NCBI GenBank assembly: GCA_007131285.1
Contig: SLQV01000148.1
Location: 1-37,089, forward strand
Direction: 5' to 3'
Origin: Myxococcales bacterium
Lineage (GTDB): Bacteria > Myxococcota_A > Polyangia > Polyangiales > SLQV01
DNA: 37,089 nucleotides
In this document: positions 19,047-31,787 of the stretch, piece by piece
Layout: every line of letters starts with the position of its first letter
How positions within the stretch are numbered: position 1 is the stretch's first letter
Made by a program: the position numbers and the translations under genes
Notes under the pieces: generated by a model
Told to the model about the DNA's origin: nothing
Database searches by the model: none
What the model saw: only the letters and a program-made list of their open reading frames with translations

Positions 19047-20270
19047 CTACCGCGCAGAACCGCCAGCCGTAAGCCCCCGGATGCGGTCACCTTTTTGGAG
19101 TTCAGTGATACTTTCGATGACAAAAGCAGTCAGTTTGTCGGGTCCGCTATCCACGACTATCGCTGTCCCCACCCGTTCAGTGGGATAGAGGCCCGAAGGT
19201 GGCGCACTGGGTGGCTCAATGGAGTGCGGACTCACCAGATGGGATACGCCAAGTTCATCGTGCCACGGATCTCCCGAGCGGACGATCTCTAGCAAGGTGC
19301 CGACCGGCAAGTGCGCACGCTCCGCGGGCTGAATGACTACCAGCTCACCGGCCGCTATCGCTTCTCGATCCCGCACATCCCCAAGAATCAGACCTTCATC
19401 TGCGCGCACTGCGGGCACCCCTTCCAGATGCACAAATCGTTCTTCTATGGCCGCGACGGCAAAGCCACGTTCGAGCGGCCCATTGCTCTCGACAATGAGC
19501 CCACGCGCAAGCTTGTTGCCGTTGAACGACTGAAGCACCCGCACGCGACCGAAGATCCTTACAAGCTCGCCTCGGTCCTCTAAAGCGTTCGGTTTGCCCA
19601 GCTCAAAACGGCGGAAGATAGCGAGTTCACTGCCGTCGGGCGCGGGGGCCCCCTCGAAATGAATATAGACAACATCACCGTCCACGAGCATCGTGCGTTC
19701 ATTCGGCGCGCCCACCAGACGCCCCGCAGTCTCTTGGCCGTCGGAACGTACAAAGCCTAAAACCGAAACATATCCCGCGCCGATCGCCCCCCGACGCTGG
19801 CTGACCTTTCCTGGCGGCGGCCGCAGGGAGCTTGTTTGGGTGGCTTGCGCCGGCACCCCGGGGCTTTCGACGCGCAAGCGCATACCGGGATAGATCCAGT
19901 GGGGGTTGGTCACTTCGGGATTTCGCGACCAAAGCCGTGGCCACGCGTCTTTGGAGCCGAGTTCCTGCTCCGCTACCTTGCCTAGGGTATCTCCTTCTTT
20001 GACCGTGTATTCTCGAGTAGGCGCCGTATCGGGCTGAATAGGCGCCGCCTGTGCCCCAGCCAGGCTGGGCGATAGCATCAGCATTACCGGCCATGCGCGC
20101 GTCAGCTTCCCGCTGATACGCGCCCAAGCGTGAATGGCCCGGGCACCGCGCCTGAGCAAAGCATCGCAGAGCAGGCTCAAAAACGCCAGGCGCGCTCGCC
20201 TCGGGTCCTCGAACAGACACATGCCTCGCCCCACGTCATACGTATGGGCATGAACCCTATTCCAGATCAC
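19047..20270 (-). CDS. Exported LysM-domain protein
   Basis: A 407-aa protein with a LysM peptidoglycan-binding module at about residues 87-134 (YTVKEGDTLGKVAEQEL ... NPHWIYPGMRL) after a hydrophobic segment, PVMLMLSPSLAGAQA, that reads as a signal peptide with AxA cleavage near residue 75. The real start is therefore probably later than 20270, perhaps the ATG at residue 17 or an internal GTG/TTG. The remainder is beta-rich without a catalytic motif I know, with internal GELVVIQP-like strands. It is likely a periplasmic cell-wall-binding protein. It lies 51 bp before the histidine kinase on the same strand and after accA. Function beyond wall binding is unknown. Confidence 0.8.
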   Translation of the reverse strand: MIWNRVHAHTYDVGRGMCLFEDPRRARLAFLSLLCDALLRRGARAIHAWARISGKLTRAWPVMLMLSPSLAGAQAAPIQPDTAPTREYTVKEGDTLGKVAEQELGSKDAWPRLWSRNPEVTNPHWIYPGMRLRVESPGVPAQATQTSSLRPPPGKVSQRRGAIGAGYVSVLGFVRSDGQETAGRLVGAPNERTMLVDGDVVYIHFEGAPAPDGSELAIFRRFELGKPNALEDRGELVRIFGRVRVLQSFNGNKLARGLIVESNGPLERGFAVAAIEERFVHLEGVPAVRADEGLILGDVRDREAIAAGELVVIQPAERAHLPVGTLLEIVRSGDPWHDELGVSHLVSPHSIEPPSAPPSGLYPTERVGTAIVVDSGPDKLTAFVIESITELQKGDRIRGLTAGGSAR

Positions 20271-21828: not shown

Positions 21829-22674
21829 TCACTGCGCAAGGCAACGTAATATCGTCGGCGAATCCTGCCCAGGCCTGCAAGGAATCACTGGATCATCCGT
21901 GGGTGCTGCGACGCACCCCACTAAACAGTCCCCTTCGGCACACACTTGAATCGCGTAGTCGAAAGGACCGGTTTGGATCGAGCGACCACCACCAGTGCGC
22001 ACCGTTAAACGAATACGCGCGACCACCGTTCCTTCAGGCAAGAAGGCACCATAGCCATCCGGAATAACGGTGGCCGGCACAAACCCCCGCGAAGCCGATG
22101 CATCGGTCCCACTAGGAATGACAGAGCCTTGAGCATTTTCGGTGAACGGGTTGGCGGCGCCCGCAAAGTCGATCACCTCGCCAGCTTGATTGAGCAGCAG
22201 CACCTCGACTGTTTCCGTAACCACATGGTTAGGATCCGCGCGCCTTTCACTCGCGAGGTTTCTTAGCGCATTATCCACACGCAGATGGACCTGGTAGCTA
22301 TCAATTCCCCCCGCAGCTAACTCGGACACGACTTCGGGTCCAGCGAGCGCTTCGACCCGGCTTCGGAATCCTGGATTAAAGACCCCGCGGGCAAGGGTCA
22401 ACCCCGTCGAGTCATACAAGCAACCCGAATCGGTGGCTTCGCCTACCAGGTTGCCGCTGATAAACACCGAAGAGTTGTTCTCCGCGCAAGCGCTCACCGC
22501 GCTCAACATGAGCCCTAGCGCGCAGACCGCGCGACGCCGCCCCCTTGCCCACGCGCCCTGAACAGTGCAACGCGCTACATCACTTGCTACCAGGGCATCT
22601 CGTTCGCTCGCCGCCGCGCCTCGAGCGTTTTTGAATGCGACCGCTTGGTAATCTGGCTCTGGGAGACTGTGCAT
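21829..22674 (-). CDS. Predicted lipoprotein of unknown function
   Basis: From the ATG at 22674 it is 281 aa. A canonical lipobox LSAVSAC places the lipidated Cys at residue 63, so the leader has an unusually long N-region of about 40 residues; no nearer start codon is available in frame. Downstream are beta strands, several cysteines (including CLYDSTG and VCAEGDCLVGC), and no known catalytic motif. A TTG at 22701 would give 290 aa. It starts about 50 bp after aroKB and precedes accA, so it is probably in the same transcript. Not recognised as a named family; related Myxococcota have many such short outer-membrane lipoproteins. Confidence 0.65.
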   Translation of the reverse strand: MHSLPEPDYQAVAFKNARGAAASERDALVASDVARCTVQGAWARGRRRAVCALGLMLSAVSACAENNSSVFISGNLVGEATDSGCLYDSTGLTLARGVFNPGFRSRVEALAGPEVVSELAAGGIDSYQVHLRVDNALRNLASERRADPNHVVTETVEVLLLNQAGEVIDFAGAANPFTENAQGSVIPSGTDASASRGFVPATVIPDGYGAFLPEGTVVARIRLTVRTGGGRSIQTGPFDYAIQVCAEGDCLVGCVAAPTDDPVIPCRPGQDSPTILRCLAQ

Positions 22675-22724
22675 GGTTCTTCGAGGGTACCAAAAATGCA
22701 ATGACGTCCGGAAGTTTCCGCGCG

Positions 22725-24335
22725 CTATATCGCTGCGGACGCGCCTTGGCGCGCCGCGTCAAGCACTTGCCTGAGCTCCGCGAAGGACAGCATCTGATAG
22801 ACAACCGAACCCGGTGCGGTCAACAGCACCAGGGTGACCCCGTCTCCCTCGCGTTTTTTGTCCGCAAGCAGAAAGCTCAAGACGTGTGGGTTGATACGTT
22901 GCTCAAAGTCGGTCGGCAACTGAGCCCGCGCAAGGAGCCCCCGCATCCGCGGCAAAATAGGCTCTTTTGGACCGAGCAATACATCACTCAGGTAGGCAGC
23001 TGCGCATAAACCCAAAGCGACCGCCTCTCCATGGCTCAAAGCCCCGAAGCCCGCAGCAGCCTCGAATGCGTGTCCTACCGTGTGGCCAAGATTCAAGCAT
23101 CGACGGCGTCCTTGCTCCCGTTCATCCTCACGCACCACGTCGATCTTGAGGCGCACGCTCTCACGGATGGCGCGTTCTAGCGCCGACGGCGATCGAGCTA
23201 GCAGATCATCGACGTCCGCCTCAAGCCGGCGAAGGGGCTCTTCTCCCGCCAACCAGGCCGCCTTGACGACCTCAGCCAACGCAGATCTTATCTGTCTATC
23301 GGGTAGCGTATCGAGAAAATCGGTATCGCACAAAACCGCAGCGGGCTGATGAAACGTACCGACAAGGTTCTTCCCTTCTGGTCGGTTGATGCCGGTCTTT
23401 CCACCAACACTGCTATCGACCATCGCCAGTAATGTCGTGGGCAGGTGAATGACACGGAGACCACGCAACACCGTCGATGCGACAAATCCAGCGAGGTCCC
23501 CGGTGGTACCTCCACCGCAACTTACAATAAGTGCCCGCCGGTCCACACCCGCTCCCAGCAGGCGCGACCAGATCCTTTCCGTCACTTCTAAGGTTTTGGC
23601 CGCCTCGCCGGAAGGAACGGGCAAAAGCGTGACCGCAGCCCCCGTCTCAGCGAGGGCTGCCTCTAGGCGACGATTTCCGTAATGTGCAACAACCGCTTCG
23701 TCGACAATCACAAACATGTGTGAGACGTCACCGTAGCCGGCAACGAGCGAACGCAGCTTCTGCAGCGCCCCCTTTGCGATATGGATACGGTAGGTTGCGG
23801 TCCCTAAAGGAACGACAAGTGGCACGCTGCGCACGAGTGAAGCCACCTCTGCGGCGACCTCCGACGCACTCCCCACCGCCGATACCGCCGCATGGCATTC
23901 GGCGTAGGCCCCTCTACGCGCTTCGAGCAGCGTACGGAGTTGGCGCGCCGGATCCGTACTCAAGAGCGGACGATCCCCGCTCTTGCCTATGCGTGCAAGC
24001 AGGGCATCGATAGGAGCCGTCAATGAGATAAGGAGGCACTCGTCAAGCAGCCGCCAGCGCAGGGACGTTTGCGTGATTGCGCCGCCGCCGAGCGCCACAA
24101 TTGTTGAAGTGCGCTCGTCACGGTATTCATCAAGCAAGCCTGCAAGCGTGAATGCCTCGAGTTCGCGAAAGTAGGGTTCACCCCTTGACTGAAAGATTGC
24201 CTCAACCGAACTCGCATTATCGGCAGCAATTTTCGCATCGAGATCAACGAATTCGTAGCCGAGCGTCTCGGCCACGAGACGCCCAACCGTGCTCTTGCCG
24301 ACACCTGGCGGCCCACTGAGGCAAATCAAAGCCAT
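22725..24335 (-). CDS. aroKB: Bifunctional shikimate kinase / 3-dehydroquinate synthase (AroK-AroB fusion)
   Basis: Two enzymes of the shikimate pathway lie in one 536-aa chain. Residues 1-170 are shikimate kinase: P-loop GPPGVGKS at 8-15, Asp33 and Arg57 for shikimate, GGG at 83-85, and DRPLL with Arg122. Residues 172-530 are dehydroquinate synthase: the NAD-binding SCGGGTTGDLAGF at 272-284, LPTTLLAMVDSSVGGKTGIN at 298-317, the metal-ligand Glu355 in AEVVKAA, NLGHTVGHAFE at 415-425 and SHGEAVA with His435. All catalytic motifs of both halves are present. The two reactions are not consecutive (AroB makes 3-dehydroquinate, AroK phosphorylates shikimate). It follows pilQ, as separate aroK-aroB do in gammaproteobacteria. 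Confidence 0.95.
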   Translation of the reverse strand: MALICLSGPPGVGKSTVGRLVAETLGYEFVDLDAKIAADNASSVEAIFQSRGEPYFRELEAFTLAGLLDEYRDERTSTIVALGGGAITQTSLRWRLLDECLLISLTAPIDALLARIGKSGDRPLLSTDPARQLRTLLEARRGAYAECHAAVSAVGSASEVAAEVASLVRSVPLVVPLGTATYRIHIAKGALQKLRSLVAGYGDVSHMFVIVDEAVVAHYGNRRLEAALAETGAAVTLLPVPSGEAAKTLEVTERIWSRLLGAGVDRRALIVSCGGGTTGDLAGFVASTVLRGLRVIHLPTTLLAMVDSSVGGKTGINRPEGKNLVGTFHQPAAVLCDTDFLDTLPDRQIRSALAEVVKAAWLAGEEPLRRLEADVDDLLARSPSALERAIRESVRLKIDVVREDEREQGRRRCLNLGHTVGHAFEAAAGFGALSHGEAVALGLCAAAYLSDVLLGPKEPILPRMRGLLARAQLPTDFEQRINPHVLSFLLADKKREGDGVTLVLLTAPGSVVYQMLSFAELRQVLDAARQGASAAI

Positions 24336-24373
24336 GACGTCCGCAGACTAGCGCACTTAAGCGTCGAATTCAC

Positions 24374-24390
24374 CGAGTTCACCGCATTCC
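24374..24390. repeat. 17-bp intergenic motif, copy 2 (upstream of aroKB)
   Basis: CGAGTTCACCGCATTCC, one base different from the copy at 16638-16654. On the minus strand it reads as two 9-bp-spaced CGGTGAA direct repeats (CGGTGAACT then CGGTGAATT), 39-55 bp before the aroKB start. It could be a regulator's operator. Confidence 0.45.
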
Positions 24391-24468
24391 GTCCACGGGC
24401 CCACCTCGTGCGTGGCCGCCATCGTTCCAGCACTTAGCGAGCGATGCTGCGAAACCGACCTCAGCGCG

Positions 24469-26715
24469 CTACATGCGCAGGGCGGCGTCACGGTTGACGA
24501 TGCGCGGCGTCAGAAAGATTAGCAGCTCGCCGCGCTCCTCGCGCATACGCCGCCGCTGAAAAAGCACCCCTAAGATGGGCAGGTCACCGAAAAACGGCAC
24601 TTGGTCGATATTTCGCCCCGTGTTGCGCGTGTAAATACCGCCGATAACCGCCGTGTGGCCGTCGGCGACAAGCAAGTTGGTCTGCGCCTCACGCTTGAGA
24701 ATAGTGGGGTCTCCTCGGTTCGAGGTGCGGGTGAAATCGGGCTCGTCTCGAGTCACTTGAACCGCCATCGCAATGGATCCGTCGCTGGTAACGTGGGGGC
24801 GCACCTTGAGTTCTAGTTTCGCCTCCTGGAAGGCGGTTTGCACGCCCTGCGCGCTGACCTGGGAGAAGGGGATCAGAGTGCCCTGACCGATGGAGGCCTC
24901 CTGATTATCCAGGGTCAAAATCTTCGGCGAAGACACGATGCGCACGATTCCATTCGCTTCAGCGGCACTCAACCGCACGTTGAGATTAAACGTGCCGCCT
25001 AAGCTGCCAAGCGTGAGACCGAGGGCGCCACCCTGTCCGGTCCCGGTGAGCGCTGGCAAATTCACCGCAAAATTAGGCTGTGTCGTCGGTCCAAAGGGGT
25101 TGAGGCCCGACGACTGACCGAGCGTGTTGATGTCAAAGTTTCCACCGGCGGCCCCCACATTGGCGGGAAACGCGAGACCGGTTGGATTGCCCGTCGCCGT
25201 GCTCATGACGAAGTCACCGCCCCACTGGATACCGATATCGCGCGTGTATTGACTGGTCGCCTCGACGATGCGTGCTTCGATGAGCACCTGCGGTGTTTGG
25301 GTATCCAGCGTCCGCACCAGTGTTTCGACATCATCGAGATTTTCGTTGATATCGCGCACGACAAGCATGTTGGTGCGTTCATCGACGGACACCGTGCCTC
25401 GTCCGGAAAGCAATTCTTTAACCCGCGGCTCAAGGTCTAGTGCCGTCGCGTAGCTAACGGGAATGAGTCGTGTTTCGAGCGGCGCCAACTGCTCCTTCTG
25501 CCGCTGCCGGGCAATGGCCGCTTCGCGCTCCTTCTCCAGCACTTCCAAGGGTGCAACGCGAATCAGGTTGCGCTGCCGCGTCATGCCTAACCCCTTGGAT
25601 TGCAAGATCACATCGAGCGCCTGATCCCAGGGCACCGAACGCATGCGAATGGTGACCGCGCCTTTAACATCGTCGCTGGTGATGACGTTGACATTACCAA
25701 TTTCCGACAGAAGCCGAAGAATATTGTGGATATCCGCATCCTTGAAGTCGAGGTCCACCGTCCGCCCGGAATACGTCGGCGTTTTTTTCTTGATGCTCTG
25801 CGCCACTTCGCCTTCCGCAGCAGCTTCGGTACCGCTTTCAATGAAGCCATCTGCAACAACACCGTCGTAACCACTGACCACGTCAAGCAGCTCCGCTTCG
25901 CGTTCTCGTGCAATCGCTACGGGCTTTTGCATCACCTTACCCTCCGCGTGCGGCGCAAAGAGCCACACAAGTCGGCGACCCTGGGAAATTACAGTCTGAC
26001 GCGCGTCAGCCTTCAGCAACACGTCAATGAAGAGCGCGTCACCGCGCTCCATCAACTCAATGCGTTCGACAAGATTGAGGTTTGAGTCGAGAAACTCTTT
26101 CGCAAGCGATTCAAGTGCGCGCGCGTGCGAAAGCTGCAGCCGGAAGGTTCGACGGCTCACTTGCGTGACGTCGTACGGCAGCAACTCATCAAAGGAAAGC
26201 TCTATGCGGTCTCGGGATTCGACATGTTGCGTGTGTACAGCCACCAGCAGCGCTTTGGCGCTCGCCTCGGAGAATGCCTTGAAGTCGAGTTTGAGCGCAC
26301 CGCCCTCGAGCGTTGCCTGGTGTGTTGCCGGTGCTGCAACTTCAATTTGAAAAATCAAACCCTCCGCACGGCGACGCGGACGCAGTCGCTCGATGAGTCC
26401 GCTGCCAACCTCGGCTTCGAGGGGCGTTTCCCCGAGCTGGGCGTCTACTTCAAGCGTGAAGCTCTTGCGGTTAGGCGAAGCGTGGACGCGATAAAGCGCG
26501 TCTTCAGGCACCCCCTCGAGGCTTAGCGTGGCACCCTGAATGGTATTCGCCACCTTTAGCTTCAAACGTGGCTTGACTCCAGAGCGACTGCCGTCCTCGG
26601 AGGTTACACCCAGCGCTGGGCTGGGCGGCAGCGCATGCACCCCACCCGAACCGCAAAACACGACCAGACTTCCAGCGCAGATTGCGCGCGCCGCGACCTT
26701 AAATACCACTTTCAT
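24469..26715 (-). CDS. pilQ: Type IV pilus secretin PilQ
   Basis: The outer-membrane channel through which the type IV pilus extends. From the ATG at 26715 it is 748 aa with a signal peptide (MKVVFKVAARAICAG ... VHA). Next come two AMIN-like peptidoglycan-binding beta regions (roughly 50-260), an STN/N0 domain near 318-395 (VDLDFKDADIHNILRLLSEI), an N1 ring domain (about 420-470), and the secretin core from 480 onward, ending in the hallmark VPFFGDLPILGVLFQRR and ELLIFLTPRIV. An alternative in-frame start at 26736 is less likely. It overlaps pilP by 17 bp. Confidence 0.96.
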   Translation of the reverse strand: MKVVFKVAARAICAGSLVVFCGSGGVHALPPSPALGVTSEDGSRSGVKPRLKLKVANTIQGATLSLEGVPEDALYRVHASPNRKSFTLEVDAQLGETPLEAEVGSGLIERLRPRRRAEGLIFQIEVAAPATHQATLEGGALKLDFKAFSEASAKALLVAVHTQHVESRDRIELSFDELLPYDVTQVSRRTFRLQLSHARALESLAKEFLDSNLNLVERIELMERGDALFIDVLLKADARQTVISQGRRLVWLFAPHAEGKVMQKPVAIAREREAELLDVVSGYDGVVADGFIESGTEAAAEGEVAQSIKKKTPTYSGRTVDLDFKDADIHNILRLLSEIGNVNVITSDDVKGAVTIRMRSVPWDQALDVILQSKGLGMTRQRNLIRVAPLEVLEKEREAAIARQRQKEQLAPLETRLIPVSYATALDLEPRVKELLSGRGTVSVDERTNMLVVRDINENLDDVETLVRTLDTQTPQVLIEARIVEATSQYTRDIGIQWGGDFVMSTATGNPTGLAFPANVGAAGGNFDINTLGQSSGLNPFGPTTQPNFAVNLPALTGTGQGGALGLTLGSLGGTFNLNVRLSAAEANGIVRIVSSPKILTLDNQEASIGQGTLIPFSQVSAQGVQTAFQEAKLELKVRPHVTSDGSIAMAVQVTRDEPDFTRTSNRGDPTILKREAQTNLLVADGHTAVIGGIYTRNTGRNIDQVPFFGDLPILGVLFQRRRMREERGELLIFLTPRIVNRDAALRM

Positions 26716-27391
26716 TCTCGACCTCGTAGAGCGCAAGCGTGCGGGACTTTAAAACTTTGTTGGGAGATGTCGGGTCCTCCCGAGTGATAACCATCGCATG
26801 AGCTCGAATACTTTCGACTCTCCAGTTGAGCAGCACCGAGACGTCCTCCGCACCGCTTACTCTCACAATTTCAGGACGACCGACATAATCGCCCTGGCGC
26901 ACCGTATGCCCCACGCCGATGCGGTCCACGAGCATCGCACGAGGCGCAGGTATTCCACTGATAATTGCGATGATGCGCATTTCATCGATGCTCGTTTCGG
27001 GCAGAAGCACCGCCCGTTGAGGGCCCTCTGGTAGCTGGCCACGAAAGACGTCGATATACGCCCGGAAAGGGTCACGTTGCCGTTCGGACTCTAGAAAACG
27101 TGATTCGGTCAGTTCGAAGTTCGCAACATCCGTCGCAGAAACGGACTGCCCGGAGGCAGTGCTTCCTCCGTCAGGCGCCGCCGCGTTGCTCGGCGCTGGG
27201 CTAGTGCCGCGTGCGGCACCAGGCATACCCCGCACACTCACGAACTCCTCATTATCCCCACAACCCCATACGCTCACAGCAAGCGCCATGACGCCCACCG
27301 CGATCCATGCGGTGCGTCGCTGTTCCGAGCGCAGCCCACAAAGGGTTTGGTGCGTCAAGACACACCCGTGTTGTCGCGTAAGCGGTGTCAT
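26699..27391 (-). CDS. pilP: Type IV pilus alignment lipoprotein PilP
   Basis: The inner-membrane lipoprotein that links the PilN/PilO pair to the secretin PilQ. It is 230 aa, with a hydrophobic leader ending in SVWGC (putative lipidated C44), a Pro/Ala/Ser linker, and the C-terminal HR-type beta domain (IDEMRIIAIISG ... VRQGDYVGRPEIVRV) that binds PilQ. The start overlaps the pilO stop as ATGA. The leader lies some 28 residues in from the first ATG. Confidence 0.92.
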   Translation of the reverse strand: MTPLTRQHGCVLTHQTLCGLRSEQRRTAWIAVGVMALAVSVWGCGDNEEFVSVRGMPGAARGTSPAPSNAAAPDGGSTASGQSVSATDVANFELTESRFLESERQRDPFRAYIDVFRGQLPEGPQRAVLLPETSIDEMRIIAIISGIPAPRAMLVDRIGVGHTVRQGDYVGRPEIVRVSGAEDVSVLLNWRVESIRAHAMVITREDPTSPNKVLKSRTLALYEVENESGI

Positions 27392-28095
27392 GCACCACCT
27401 CGTGCTTGAACGCGCTTGGCACGCTCGCCCCGAATATCGACCATGGCGGTGCTCGGAGAAGCAGCCGGCGCGTGCGGCAACAACGCGGCGGAGGCCGGCG
27501 CGCCGTCGGCGGAAGGGCTTGGTTTGCGGAATGTTGTCGCCAACACTTCTACCTCTAGCGTCGAGGATGAGTCACCACTTTCGGGTTTAGCCAGCTTTAG
27601 GCGCACGTTCTCCAAGTTGATCGCACGGTCGAGTTTGCTCACGTTGTAAAAGAACTTGAACACCTGATGGAAAGTGCCACGCAAACCGAGGTTGACCGGC
27701 ACCTTAACGTAGAGCGGCTGTGGTTGCTCTGCGCGAGGTTGCACAAGGGAAATATCTAGACCGCACAGTTCAGCGACGCGGTTAAGATCTTTAAGAAACG
27801 CAGCGATCTCCGCTTCCGCAGGCAAGGTTCGGCGATTACGCTGATCAATGGCGCGACGCGCAAGGAGCGCCTCTGATACACGAACGAACTCTGATTTTCG
27901 CGCCTCCGCAGCGCGCTCTTTCTCTTTTAAGTCCTCAAACCGGCGTGACGCGGCTTCGAGGTCGTCGTTCAGCGGCCGATAAAGCGCAACGTAGTAGACG
28001 CTGGTGACCAAGCCGAGCAACACCACAAGAACCAGCATCTTCGCAGGTGCGGGCAGGTAGTTGAAGTTAGGCAGCTTATCGATACCAAAAGGCAT
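27388..28095 (-). CDS. pilO: Type IV pilus inner-membrane protein PilO
   Basis: A bitopic inner-membrane protein of the alignment subcomplex. It is 235 aa, with one transmembrane helix at about 20-40 (MLVLVVLLGLVTSVYYVAL), a coiled-coil region (about 43-80), and the ferredoxin-like periplasmic domain typical of PilO (KVPVNLGLRGTFHQVFKFF). The C-terminal tail from about 190 is Ala/Pro/Ser-rich. It is 40 bp after pilN and overlaps pilP by four bases. Confidence 0.93.
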   Translation of the reverse strand: MPFGIDKLPNFNYLPAPAKMLVLVVLLGLVTSVYYVALYRPLNDDLEAASRRFEDLKEKERAAEARKSEFVRVSEALLARRAIDQRNRRTLPAEAEIAAFLKDLNRVAELCGLDISLVQPRAEQPQPLYVKVPVNLGLRGTFHQVFKFFYNVSKLDRAINLENVRLKLAKPESGDSSSTLEVEVLATTFRKPSPSADGAPASAALLPHAPAASPSTAMVDIRGERAKRVQARGGA

Positions 28096-28135
28096 AAGGT
28101 TCGTACTATCTAAAGGCCGGTGTGTGCGTTCTGCA

Positions 28136-28783
28136 TCAGTAGGCGAGCTTGCTTTTCAGCGAAAACGCGATCCAGTTGGTGCCTGTTCCGCGGTCTTTGA
28201 CAGCCTCGGTCTTTTCGAGTGTGACACCATCGAAGAGCTCCGAGAGCGCCAAACGCCGAAGAAACTCGGCGACATCTTCATTCGTCTTGCCACGGCCCTC
28301 GATCGAGCAGCTACGGTTGTCCTCGGCGAATCGCTCGATCCACAGTCGCTTTGGATCCCAGTCTCGATTGAAGCCTGAGAGCGGATTGTCTCGGCGCATC
28401 TGCTCAAGCTTCTCTGGGCGAATGGTAGGCCCGCCATCAAGGCTAAGAATTTTCGATAACTCAAGGATGGTTCGGGTAGGACCTGTGCGCGCTCGATTCA
28501 ACTCAGCTACTGTAGCCTCGAGCTCCTCGCTCGATTTCAAGCGTAGCTGCAACGCGTCAAGCTCTTGGGTCTCTCGGGTCAGGCGGGTGACCTTGGTGTC
28601 GAGCGACCGGTTCTGCTCAAGCTTCTGTGCGAGCTGGTCGCCTAGACCCAGGTAGTTGACCGCAAGCAGAACGAGCCAGACCACCGACACAACGGCGTAG
28701 ACGATGTACCATATCTGCGTATTGGCGGTGGCAACCTGCGCTCCACGCGCTTTGCCGCCGGGCAGTAGATTAATGCGAATCAT
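28136..28783 (-). CDS. pilN: Type IV pilus inner-membrane protein PilN
   Basis: It pairs with PilO in the membrane and with PilM through its cytoplasmic N-terminus, MIRINLLPGGK, the conserved INLLP motif that docks into PilM. One transmembrane helix (about 26-48), a coiled coil (51-90) and a compact periplasmic domain follow, 215 aa in all. The ATG overlaps the pilM stop by four bases. Confidence 0.95.
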   Translation of the reverse strand: MIRINLLPGGKARGAQVATANTQIWYIVYAVVSVVWLVLLAVNYLGLGDQLAQKLEQNRSLDTKVTRLTRETQELDALQLRLKSSEELEATVAELNRARTGPTRTILELSKILSLDGGPTIRPEKLEQMRRDNPLSGFNRDWDPKRLWIERFAEDNRSCSIEGRGKTNEDVAEFLRRLALSELFDGVTLEKTEAVKDRGTGTNWIAFSLKSKLAY

Positions 28784-29853
28784 TGAAAACGCTCCCGCTC
28801 TCGGCGCAAGCCTAGGCCCAGCGCGACGTTAAGCTCGGAGGAGCTTTCGCGGAACGCGTCAATATTATTGGCTTTTTCGCTGAAATCAACGCCAGCGGTC
28901 GCATCGAGCAGGCGCACATCGCAGCCCGCGCGCTCTGCAATCGCACCCAGCAGACCGTAGAGGCGCCCGGAGCCGCCCGAAAGTAGAATGCTCTGCAAAC
29001 GTTTATCCACGGCGGTCGCCAGGTAAAAATCCAACGTGCGTTGTATCTCGCCCGCAAGCTCCTCAGCGGCCAGCTCTAGAGCCTCGCGCACTGAGCGGTC
29101 TGCCATGCCACCCGAGTCGCGCCTGCACTTCAGCGTCTCCGCTTCCTCACGGGCAATACCAAGCTGACGCTGGAGGGCTTCGGTGACGCGGTCACCGCCA
29201 GTGGTGACGTCGCGCGTAAAGGCGCTCGTCCCCGAGGCGATCACGTTCAGCGTTGTCAGCGACGCGCCGATATGGACAATGGCCGTATGCTCGCTCGCGT
29301 TGATGCCCGCCGGCAGCGTACGTGCGTAAAGGTTTTGCAGCGCGAGCGCATCAAGGTCGATCACCTTGGGCTTGAGTCGCGCTTCTGAAGCGAGGTTGGA
29401 GAGGTCACGAATCTCATCCTTTTTAGCCGCCACAAGCAACACATCCATTTGCCCCTGTACTGGCCTGCTCGCGAGCACCTCGTAATCTATGTGGACGTCA
29501 GAGAGCGCGAACGGGATGTGCTGCTCTGCCTCCCATATGGCTTGCTCCTGCAGCTCCTCGGGACTCATGATCGGTATCGCTATTTTCTTGATGATGACAC
29601 CGTGGCCGCTGACGCGAAGCGCCACTTCTCGGTGTTTACAGCCATCAAATAGTCGCTCGAGCGCTTCTACAACTGCACCCGCATTCATAATGTGGCCATC
29701 TACGATGCTCTGCGCGGGCAATCGCTCAATGCCCCAGCGCACGACGCGTGGACGCTCCTTTGGGCCTCCCTCGAACTCGCACACCTTGACCGAGCTGCTG
29801 CCGATATCGACACCTACGAGATAGCGACCTTCGTCTTTATTGCGGAACCACAC
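28780..29853 (-). CDS. pilM: Type IV pilus actin-like ATPase PilM
   Basis: The cytoplasmic, FtsA-like ring component that binds PilN. The GTG at 29853 is preferred: it gives VWFRNKDEGRYLVGVDIGSS, just as other PilM begin, has GGGGTG some seven bases upstream, and yields 357 aa. The frame is open to 29988, but those 45 residues have no family likeness. Nucleotide-binding motifs are VDIGSSSVKV near 14-23, IVHIGASLTTLNV (phosphate 2-like) and LLSGGSGRLYGL near the C-terminus. First gene of pilMNOPQ. Confidence 0.95.
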   Translation of the reverse strand: MWFRNKDEGRYLVGVDIGSSSVKVCEFEGGPKERPRVVRWGIERLPAQSIVDGHIMNAGAVVEALERLFDGCKHREVALRVSGHGVIIKKIAIPIMSPEELQEQAIWEAEQHIPFALSDVHIDYEVLASRPVQGQMDVLLVAAKKDEIRDLSNLASEARLKPKVIDLDALALQNLYARTLPAGINASEHTAIVHIGASLTTLNVIASGTSAFTRDVTTGGDRVTEALQRQLGIAREEAETLKCRRDSGGMADRSVREALELAAEELAGEIQRTLDFYLATAVDKRLQSILLSGGSGRLYGLLGAIAERAGCDVRLLDATAGVDFSEKANNIDAFRESSSELNVALGLGLRRERERFQ

Positions 29854-30401
29854 TGGCGAGCACCCCAAGTTCTGCGGAACCCTCTCCGCCGAACGCCACT
29901 CTATCTCAGCGAGGCACACTCGGTAAAGTTCACACCAACAATGGCTCCTGGCAGTGAATATTCCGTAGCATGGGAGCACCCCGTGCAACGCGAGGCTGCG
30001 CGAGGGGTCTCGCGTTCGAGATTAAGCCTCGCGGCCGTTTGTCAGCCTTGTCGAGTTGCGGTACATTGCCGCCGTGAGTCGTTGAACACCTGAGTTAACC
30101 GGCCCGAGCCATTACACGCTGGCGCAAAAGACGCCGGCCCCCGTCAAGAATGCAGCAGCACGCATGGTCTGGAATGCCTGGCCTGGAGCGCATCGTCTGA
30201 ACCGACTGGCCAAACGTGACTGATAAAAGGCAGCTGGCTGAGAGCGCTTAACTTTAAGGAAGAGGCTCAAGCAGGCTCTGTGTGGCACACTTAGCGTGCC
30301 ACAAGGTTGACAACGACGGGTGGCACATGGCCCGTGTCGTGCGAGCCAAGACCTATTCTGCGCAAAGCTACATGTTTCAGTGGATCCTTGGGAAACGCCA
30401 A
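29854..30401. other. Divergent region between pilM and the LysM-DUF882 gene
   Basis: About 550 bp that should carry the promoters of the pil operon (-) and of the cell-wall gene (+). I found no sigma54 -24/-12 pair with correct spacing and no clear sigma70 boxes. It holds a strong inverted repeat at 30281-30303. Open frames here are shadows. Confidence 0.4.
30281..30303. repeat. 8-bp perfect inverted repeat in the pilM/LysM-DUF882 divergent region
   Basis: TGTGGCAC (30281-30288) and GTGCCACA (30296-30303) are exact reverse complements with a 7-base spacer. This is operator-like symmetry; TGGCAC recurs at 30321. There is no T-run, so it is not a terminator. Confidence 0.55.
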
Positions 30402-31787
30402 ATGACGCAAGATATACGCCTACGGCTAGGCCGTCCTCACCGAGACAAGCACGGGCTTCGAGTGCTCATTTTAGGTTTACCGAAGCGCCGGTATTGCAAA
30501 AAGAGCACGACGCTGAACGGCGGCCGCTTCGCCCCTATCGCATCCGCGCTGATTCAGGTAGCCGGCGTCGTCTTAGGCGTCACGGCATCCAAGGTGCATG
30601 CGGAGCGCATTCATCAAGTGGCATCGGGGCAAACCCCAGCTCAAATCGCATCCAAATATCGTGTCTCTGTCCAGAACCTCTTGGCCGCCAACTCGATGAG
30701 CCAAGGCGACTTCATTCGCCCTGGTCAGTCGCTACGCGTGCCAGAACAGGGCGTTGTCTTTGTGAAAGCAGGCGACAGTCTCTCGGCGCTTGCCAAAAGT
30801 CATGGTGTTTCGGTGTCAAGCCTGATGAAAGCCAACCGCCTCAGCGACGGCGAAGTGATCCAGGTAGGCCAGAAGTTGCTGCTACCCGGCTATCAAGCAG
30901 CCCACCTGCAACGGAAAGCGGCCAAGCGTTGGGGCGAGCCGCGCAACCCTGGTGTGGCGAAGTTTGCGAGGGTCTACCCCCAGCAGAAACGCACCATTCG
31001 CTTGGTCGATAAGCGTGGTCGCACGCGCATGGCAGCCCGGCGCGCCCTGCGAGCGCTCTTTCGGGACAATGCTTCAGGCAAGACCATGCTGCCTAATGCG
31101 CGGCTGGTACAACTGCTCGCCCGCGTATCCGACCACTTCGGCGGACGACCCATTCATATCGTGTCGGGTTACCGCACACGCGGTGGATACACGAGCGAAG
31201 GCAGCCGGCACACAAGTGGACGTGCTGTCGACTTTCGAATTCCCGGGGTTCCAAACAGGGAATTGCGAGACTTCTGTCGCACACTCCCCGGCGTAGGCGT
31301 GGGGTTTTATCCAAACAGCACGTTTGTACATCTTGATGTACGCGATGACGGCGCTTTCTGGGTAGATGTTTCGCGCCCGGGGCAGAAGCCAACTTACGTC
31401 AAGGCCGCCGAGTATAAAAAGCGTAACCACACAAAAGAGTCCGACGATAGCGAAGCGGAAGGTCGCGCCAACGCCGCAAATAACGCGGCCGCAAGCGCCG
31501 CTGCCGATGAGGAGGCGCTTTCCGAAGCGGAGCATCTCGACAAGGATGAGGCAAGTGCCCCCCAATCCTCCAAGGCTGCATCGGATACCGCACCCGGTAA
31601 GGCCCGCGGAGACTCGCAACGCAGAAAGCCTTCAGATTCAAATCAGCCCGACAGTCCGTCACCCGCCAAATCGCCGACCAAAACCAAAGATACGCTCGAC
31701 ACACCCCTGAATTCTCCTGCCGCGCGCGAGTCAGACATCGATGCGACGGCTGTCCACAAAGGTGCGAATCAGAGGGGCGCAACCTGA
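30402..31787 (+). CDS. LysM-LysM-DUF882 (M15-like) cell-wall protein
   Basis: An exported peptidoglycan-binding protein, probably a murein hydrolase or carboxypeptidase-type enzyme. From the ATG at 30402 it is 461 aa; GTG at 30462 or earlier starts (to 30282) are possible, since the signal peptide (ALIQVAGVVLGVTASKVHA) lies well inside. Two LysM modules (about 69-113 and 118-162) precede a DUF882/M15_2 domain (about 190-325) in which the zinc ligands appear kept: His270 and Asp277 in RHTSGRAVDF, and His310 in FVHLDV. The last 120 residues are Lys/Ser/Asp/Ala-rich and disordered. It is divergent from pilM, which suggests, but does not prove, a role in the wall opening for pilus assembly. Confidence 0.85.
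   Translation: MTQDIRLRLGRPHRDKHGLRVLILGLPKRRYCKKSTTLNGGRFAPIASALIQVAGVVLGVTASKVHAERIHQVASGQTPAQIASKYRVSVQNLLAANSMSQGDFIRPGQSLRVPEQGVVFVKAGDSLSALAKSHGVSVSSLMKANRLSDGEVIQVGQKLLLPGYQAAHLQRKAAKRWGEPRNPGVAKFARVYPQQKRTIRLVDKRGRTRMAARRALRALFRDNASGKTMLPNARLVQLLARVSDHFGGRPIHIVSGYRTRGGYTSEGSRHTSGRAVDFRIPGVPNRELRDFCRTLPGVGVGFYPNSTFVHLDVRDDGAFWVDVSRPGQKPTYVKAAEYKKRNHTKESDDSEAEGRANAANNAAASAAADEEALSEAEHLDKDEASAPQSSKAASDTAPGKARGDSQRRKPSDSNQPDSPSPAKSPTKTKDTLDTPLNSPAARESDIDATAVHKGANQRGAT

Follow-up and report, generated by a model that had tools for sequence, protein, structure and literature searches.

Genes for shikimate kinase (AroK) and 3-dehydroquinate synthase (AroB) located behind the type IV pilus genes pilMNOPQ are an established feature of proteobacterial genomes, and fusions of the two enzymes are also known. 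In E. coli, hofMNOPQ is followed by separate aroK and aroB genes and then by damX-dam, and aroK and aroB have been placed downstream of the pil cluster, with reference to earlier work, in a set of 197 proteobacterial type IVa pilus (T4aP) secretins (PMC7545093). Here we examine a 37,089 nt contig of a Myxococcales bacterium (SLQV01000148.1, assembly GCA_007131285.1; hereafter the window), where gene order and strand are those of the proteobacterial arrangement but the two enzymes form one gene, aroKB, followed by a lipoprotein-like gene and accA. Throughout, the order is Polyangiales and the phylum Myxococcota, the assignment that we infer for the window from the grouping of a named Labilithrix metagenome-assembled genome (L055) with family f12 of the same order. 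We consider it very probable that the window holds a reduced and fused version of an ancient pilMNOPQ-aroC-aroK-aroB(-x-aroQ) block, in which aroC left the cluster, aroK and aroB fused to yield a bifunctional product, and the synteny with the pil genes is inherited order. The locus is, with good support, mostly a case of ordinary genome evolution; what is added here is its depth across phyla, the recurrence of the fusion, the apparent loss of aroC and a lipoprotein family behind the aro genes.

Two NCBIfam models of bifunctional proteins share the AroK-then-AroB order with AroKB. NF010627 (PRK14021, bifunctional shikimate kinase/3-dehydroquinate synthase; 542 positions) aligns to AroKB residues 7-511, but the score of 274 bits for this protein, sitting behind pilMNOPQ, does not reach the cut-off of 565. 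NF010556 (PRK13951, bifunctional AroK/AroB) aligns to residues 3-509 and, at 208 bits, likewise falls below its cut-off of 560. The fungal pentafunctional AROM protein likewise carries several shikimate enzymes on a single polypeptide, AroB-type and AroK-type domains among them, but has five domains in a differing order; a close relation between AroKB and AROM is ruled out, with matches restricted to single domains. Lastly, Massilia sp. Root133 (L123:9944-11629) encodes, as the window does, a fused AroKB behind pilMNOPQ, here at a distance of approximately 2 kb and among Burkholderiales with separate genes. Its AroB groups with those of Burkholderiales, unlike that of the window, and it therefore represents a separate fusion event.

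The aroKB frame of the window runs for 536 codons with no internal stop. An earlier note, made from the letters of the window alone, had read it as both shikimate enzymes in one 536-aa chain with all motifs kept, a reading borne out by the uninterrupted open reading frame (ORF), the domain matches and the invariant residues. Pfam places SKI at residues 9-164 and DHQ_synthase with DHQS_C at residues 238-493, whilst the NCBIfam aroB model TIGR01357 scores 349 bits (cut-off 305). When 19 fused homologues are aligned, the invariant positions of the AroK domain include Walker A G12 and K13, D32 (the aspartate of the DxD motif), R56, the GGG at 82-84, R121 and R139, and those of the AroB domain E354, K357, H417 and H434. 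With SKI and DHQ synthase in one unbroken chain and the catalytic residues of both retained, the protein belongs with the AroK-AroB fusion proteins. The AlphaFold (AF2) model is confident (predicted local distance difference test, pLDDT, 90.6; predicted template modelling score, pTM, 0.89), and the closest PDB matches are AroB structures. The product is predicted to be a bifunctional enzyme with both catalytic activities.

Such a chain could also result from a sequencing or assembly error joining two separate genes, a caution raised in the earlier note, and the window does come from a draft genome of 216 contigs. However, the same-genus genome G001 carries the identical fused frame, its AroKB being 87% identical, and one match spans both domains in 49 of the 56 other genomes of the order, with contig ends cutting most of the remaining 7. 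The linker is conserved, at mostly 7 residues across the order. Because the same fused frame is present in these independent relatives of genus and order, the fusion is not an artefact; read error or frameshift is ruled out as its source, and we regard the chance of a false join as negligible. Equally ruled out is a fusion limited to this window, as fused homologues were found in the order, in the phylum and in a named scan of 80 loci outside the phylum sample. Moreover, comparison with G001 shows AroKB to be under purifying selection, with a ratio of nonsynonymous to synonymous substitution (dN/dS) of about 0.06 (AroK 0.064; AroB 0.054; linker 0.015, over 11 codons only). No second AroB or AroK-type kinase was found in the window's genome, the sole further match covering 35 residues.

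In the window five pil genes stand in the order pilM-N-O-P-Q, all on the minus strand, with aroKB directly behind them. Within the phylum we fetched 120 loci, 66 fused and 54 separate by an ORF test, some with flanks too short to tell. PilQ precedes the aro genes in 38/66 fused and 34/54 separate loci, and the pil-aro order therefore exists in both states. Many families of the phylum have pilMNOPQ-aroK-aroB with aroK and aroB unfused, and the neighbourhood is common to close relatives (families f1, f3, f5, f6, f10 and f11), where the earlier note had allowed that it might be lacking. The fuller order in relatives is pilMNOPQ-aroC-aroK-aroB-(x)-aroQ. Family f6, from the window's own order, has pilMNOPQ-aroC-aroKB, and locus L175, from the same class, has PilQ-aroC-aroKB-x-aroQ. 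Distances between AroB sequences correlate within the phylum with those of PilM, PilO and PilQ (Mantel r 0.75, 0.80 and 0.66, respectively), an agreement that would fit common inheritance, as expected.

The neighbourhood extends well beyond the phylum. Separate-gene pilMNOPQ-aroK-aroB is common in beta- and gammaproteobacteria of the named scan, and the order is identical in E. coli K-12 (hofMNOPQ-aroK-aroB), in agreement with what the earlier note had stated for gammaproteobacteria. In the Bacillota, pil genes precede aroC-aroK-aroB at three loci (L129, L255 and L257), and a fourth (L258) runs from pilM through a secretin to aroC-aroK-aroB-aroQ; most of the remaining Bacillota loci keep aroC-aroK-aroB alone. 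At L271, also of Bacillota, what looked like PilQ was a weak match (E = 7e-3) and was not used. Among Actinomycetota, locus L083 reads pilMNO-aroC-aroKB-aroQ, and in the class to which it belongs 17 of the 20 genomes with a PilM match have it on the strand of AroK or AroKB, 3.09-3.22 kb upstream (coordinates compared by hand, fused and separate forms together). The pil-aro neighbourhood is very old and spans several phyla.

Could the adjacency instead have arisen independently in Myxococcota and Gammaproteobacteria, or the block have spread by horizontal transfer? Linkage is patchy, with many fused and separate loci lacking upstream pil genes, and the deep branches of AroB are weakly resolved, as such a history would allow. 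We nevertheless regard it as quite unlikely, since order and strand of pil-then-aro are shared by at least four phyla, the PilM-AroK spacing is conserved within an actinobacterial class (17 genomes), the Myxococcota AroB are not nested in proteobacterial sequences in the AroB trees, and AroB and Pil distances are concordant. The order of events would rather be an old neighbourhood followed by a later fusion. This had been one suggestion of the earlier note, and it agrees with the separate-gene synteny seen in the phylum, in beta- and gammaproteobacteria and, with aroC, in Bacillota and Actinomycetota.

Usually the pil-aro neighbourhood is described for Proteobacteria. Since Myxococcota have it too, and Bacillota and Actinomycetota have it with aroC and in some cases aroQ, it is a candidate for a deep marker of type IV pilus history. 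A literature search, which reached few subscription journals, found no published description of the pil-aroC-aroK-aroB(-aroQ) arrangement across phyla. A survey of myxobacterial T4aP genes checked five flanking genes and names ribF beside pilB; in the passages of its main text that we found no aro gene is mentioned, and the word 'shikimate' does not occur in that text (PMC6060248).

The other shikimate genes of the window's genome lie on other contigs: AroC, AroA, AroQ and an AroE-family protein, the match to the latter (182 bits) being below the 200-bit cut-off. Two AroC types exist in the order. The first, found in 19 genomes, is 60-100% identical to the f6 query and is encoded directly before aroK(B) in 15 of the 19; the other 37 genomes, that of the window included, have AroC only 36-43% identical, encoded elsewhere. 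One order thus contains two distant AroC types, one in the pil-aro cluster and one outside it (G000:C139:14181-15257 and other genomes searched). It looks like the cluster copy of aroC was replaced by the distant type. Given that the window's AroC is of the divergent type, the simplest reading would be that the aroC of the cluster was lost in its lineage, which relies on another.

Fusion has a more complex history than synteny. In a 141-sequence AroB tree the window falls in a 46-row clade that is entirely fused (SH-like approximate likelihood ratio test, SH-aLRT, 98), whilst the whole tree requires no fewer than 14 changes of fusion state, 8 of these forced by strong branches. A smaller, more careful tree gives 12 changes, 9 of them forced. 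Approximately unbiased (AU) tests reject all fusions as one clade (p = 7.3e-5), which rules out that arrangement, and also reject the phylum's fusions as one clade (p = 7.7e-4) and the order joined with the f34 fusions. In 37/40 separate pairs of the phylum, aroB follows close behind or overlaps the aroK stop in the same shifted frame, such that a one-base indel could fuse the pair. Linker lengths differ by fused group: 7 residues in the order, 8-11 in f21, 20-26 in f20 and f34, and 59 in f42. Together with the mostly separate aroK and aroB of Proteobacteria and Bacillota, the differing linkers and shared frame register favour independent fusions, as far as sequence comparison can tell. The earlier note had offered convergence as an alternative; for the fusion this was apt, in that the fused genes are not monophyletic, but for the synteny it does not hold.

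A single ancestral fusion, dating to the phylum or before it and undone by many later fissions, would account for how widespread the fused forms are, and the parsimony counts of 12-14 changes carry no direction. We think this very unlikely: one frame register across nearly all separate pairs of the phylum is what an ancestral separate state leads one to expect, linkers vary among the fused groups, proteobacterial and Bacillota genes are mostly separate, and the Massilia fusion stands alone inside a separate-gene group. For the window's lineage, we favour a merger of close or overlapping aroK and aroB, the latter in a shifted frame, that was probably a single event, at the base of the order or earlier.

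Several observations weigh against this reconstruction. The order together with three same-class fused families is not rejected as one clade by the AU test (p = 0.19), and the fusion may therefore predate the order. The AroB tree is weakly supported at its deep branches, with 71/81 for the order in the smaller tree, and counts of change cannot separate fusion from fission. Regarding the neighbourhood, any pair of genes passed on vertically would be expected to give a Mantel correlation. Moreover, 28/66 fused loci have no pil gene upstream, some of them having short flanks; linkage has therefore often been lost.

We propose that the ancestral pilMNOPQ-aroC-aroK-aroB(-x-aroQ) block was reduced in the window's lineage, where aroC would have departed and a divergent aroC elsewhere remained. 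After the merger, an N-terminal ATP-dependent shikimate kinase (step 5) would be tethered by approximately 7 residues to an NAD- and metal-dependent 3-dehydroquinate synthase (step 2). AroB dimerises; AroKB presumably does likewise, and the AroB dimer would probably carry the tethered kinases. AroKB would thereby supply both activities to the shikimate pathway, with the AroC, AroA, AroQ and AroE-family genes elsewhere. Steps 2 (AroB) and 5 (AroK) of the pathway are non-consecutive, as the earlier note had pointed out in line with textbook biochemistry, and equal amounts of the two enzymes are therefore a likelier consequence of the fusion than channelling. The same adjacent, often overlapping pair has fused repeatedly, a natural experiment on gene fusion. 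With enzymes that catalyse non-successive steps, such recurrence suggests that closeness and reading frame are a stronger driver of some fusions than channelling is.

Linkage and fusion both reach deep and recur, which might be taken to mean that they are kept for function, by coupling AroK and AroB metabolically or by regulating pilus assembly and aromatic biosynthesis together, and AlphaFold does place both domains confidently. This is an unlikely explanation given that the two steps are not consecutive, cluster-type aroC is absent from approximately two thirds of the order and, in Acinetobacter, the two genes appear simply in a list of essential genes located in type IV pilus operons (PMC5542475). 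Moreover, because f12-type families of the window's order keep aroKB with no pil genes nearby, a functional reason for the link is not needed. Most likely, the pil-aro link is inherited gene order without functional need.

Table 1. Features of the pil-aro region, by position in the window.
Feature	Position	Strand	Basis
Uncharacterised cysteine-rich lipoprotein-like protein behind aroKB	21829..22701	-	Family profile; true start probably inside ORF
aroKB, predicted bifunctional shikimate kinase / 3-dehydroquinate synthase, 536 aa	22725..24335	-	Single ORF, Pfam, NCBIfam, AF2
AroB (3-dehydroquinate synthase) domain, residues 173-518	22782..23819	-	Profile envelope; invariant E354/H417/H434 positions
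AroK-AroB linker, residues 166-172, ~7 aa	23820..23840	-	Profile envelopes; length typical of the order
AroK (shikimate kinase) domain, residues 2-165	23841..24332	-	Profile envelope; invariant catalytic residues
pilQ, type IV pilus secretin, 755 aa	24469..26736	-	TIGR02515, 436 bits
pilP	26699..27391	-	Profile built in this analysis, E = 2.7e-44; place between pilO and pilQ
pilO	27388..28095	-	PF04350
pilN	28136..28783	-	PF05137
pilM	28780..29853	-	PF11104; TIGR01175, 211 bits; ORF may begin upstream at 29988

The T4aP alignment complex is complete in the window (Table 1), comprising PilM, PilN, PilO, the secretin PilQ and PilP, which is recognised by the purpose-built profile only and has no Pfam or NCBIfam match at E ≤ 0.001. 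Between pilQ and aroKB lie 133 bp without a terminator-like site. A promoter scan found nothing, terminator-like sites were at chance level, and the Rfam search returned tRNA only.

Directly behind aroKB lies the lipoprotein-like gene. The 63 ORFs that its profile finds all come from the phylum sample or four loci of the named scan, and nearly all immediately follow AroB or AroKB; besides that of the window, members lie in L134-L176, L180, L184, L192, L199, L205, L210 and L251. None of the 23 members tested has a Pfam match, and no PDB sequence match was found. Despite a confident AlphaFold model (pLDDT 90), only weak fold matches, to beta-sandwich proteins, were obtained. This Myxococcota family, by its place behind AroK(B), offers a concrete lead. 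One speculation, which we hold improbable, is that selection rather than inertia holds the pil-aro block together across phyla and that the lipoprotein is co-selected, for example because it acts in the envelope together with the PilQ secretin.

Some pil ORFs elsewhere are unusual. A 586-aa ORF matches the PilM and PilN profiles built here at two loci with fused AroKB (L251:2210-3967 and L104:4242-5999), its PilM identity being confirmed by NCBIfam. Very long PilQ ORFs, as judged from ORF length, measure approximately 2250-2790 aa in f21 (L184, L185, L189, L191, L195 and L197), 2367 aa in L243 (f43) and 1621 aa in L176 (f15), compared with 755 aa in the window. Lastly, LysM-domain proteins are encoded on both sides of the window's pil-aro region, at 30282-31787 (+) and 19047-20270 (-); by Pfam and NCBIfam, one of the pair carries an M15/DUF882-type peptidase domain and the other LysM only.

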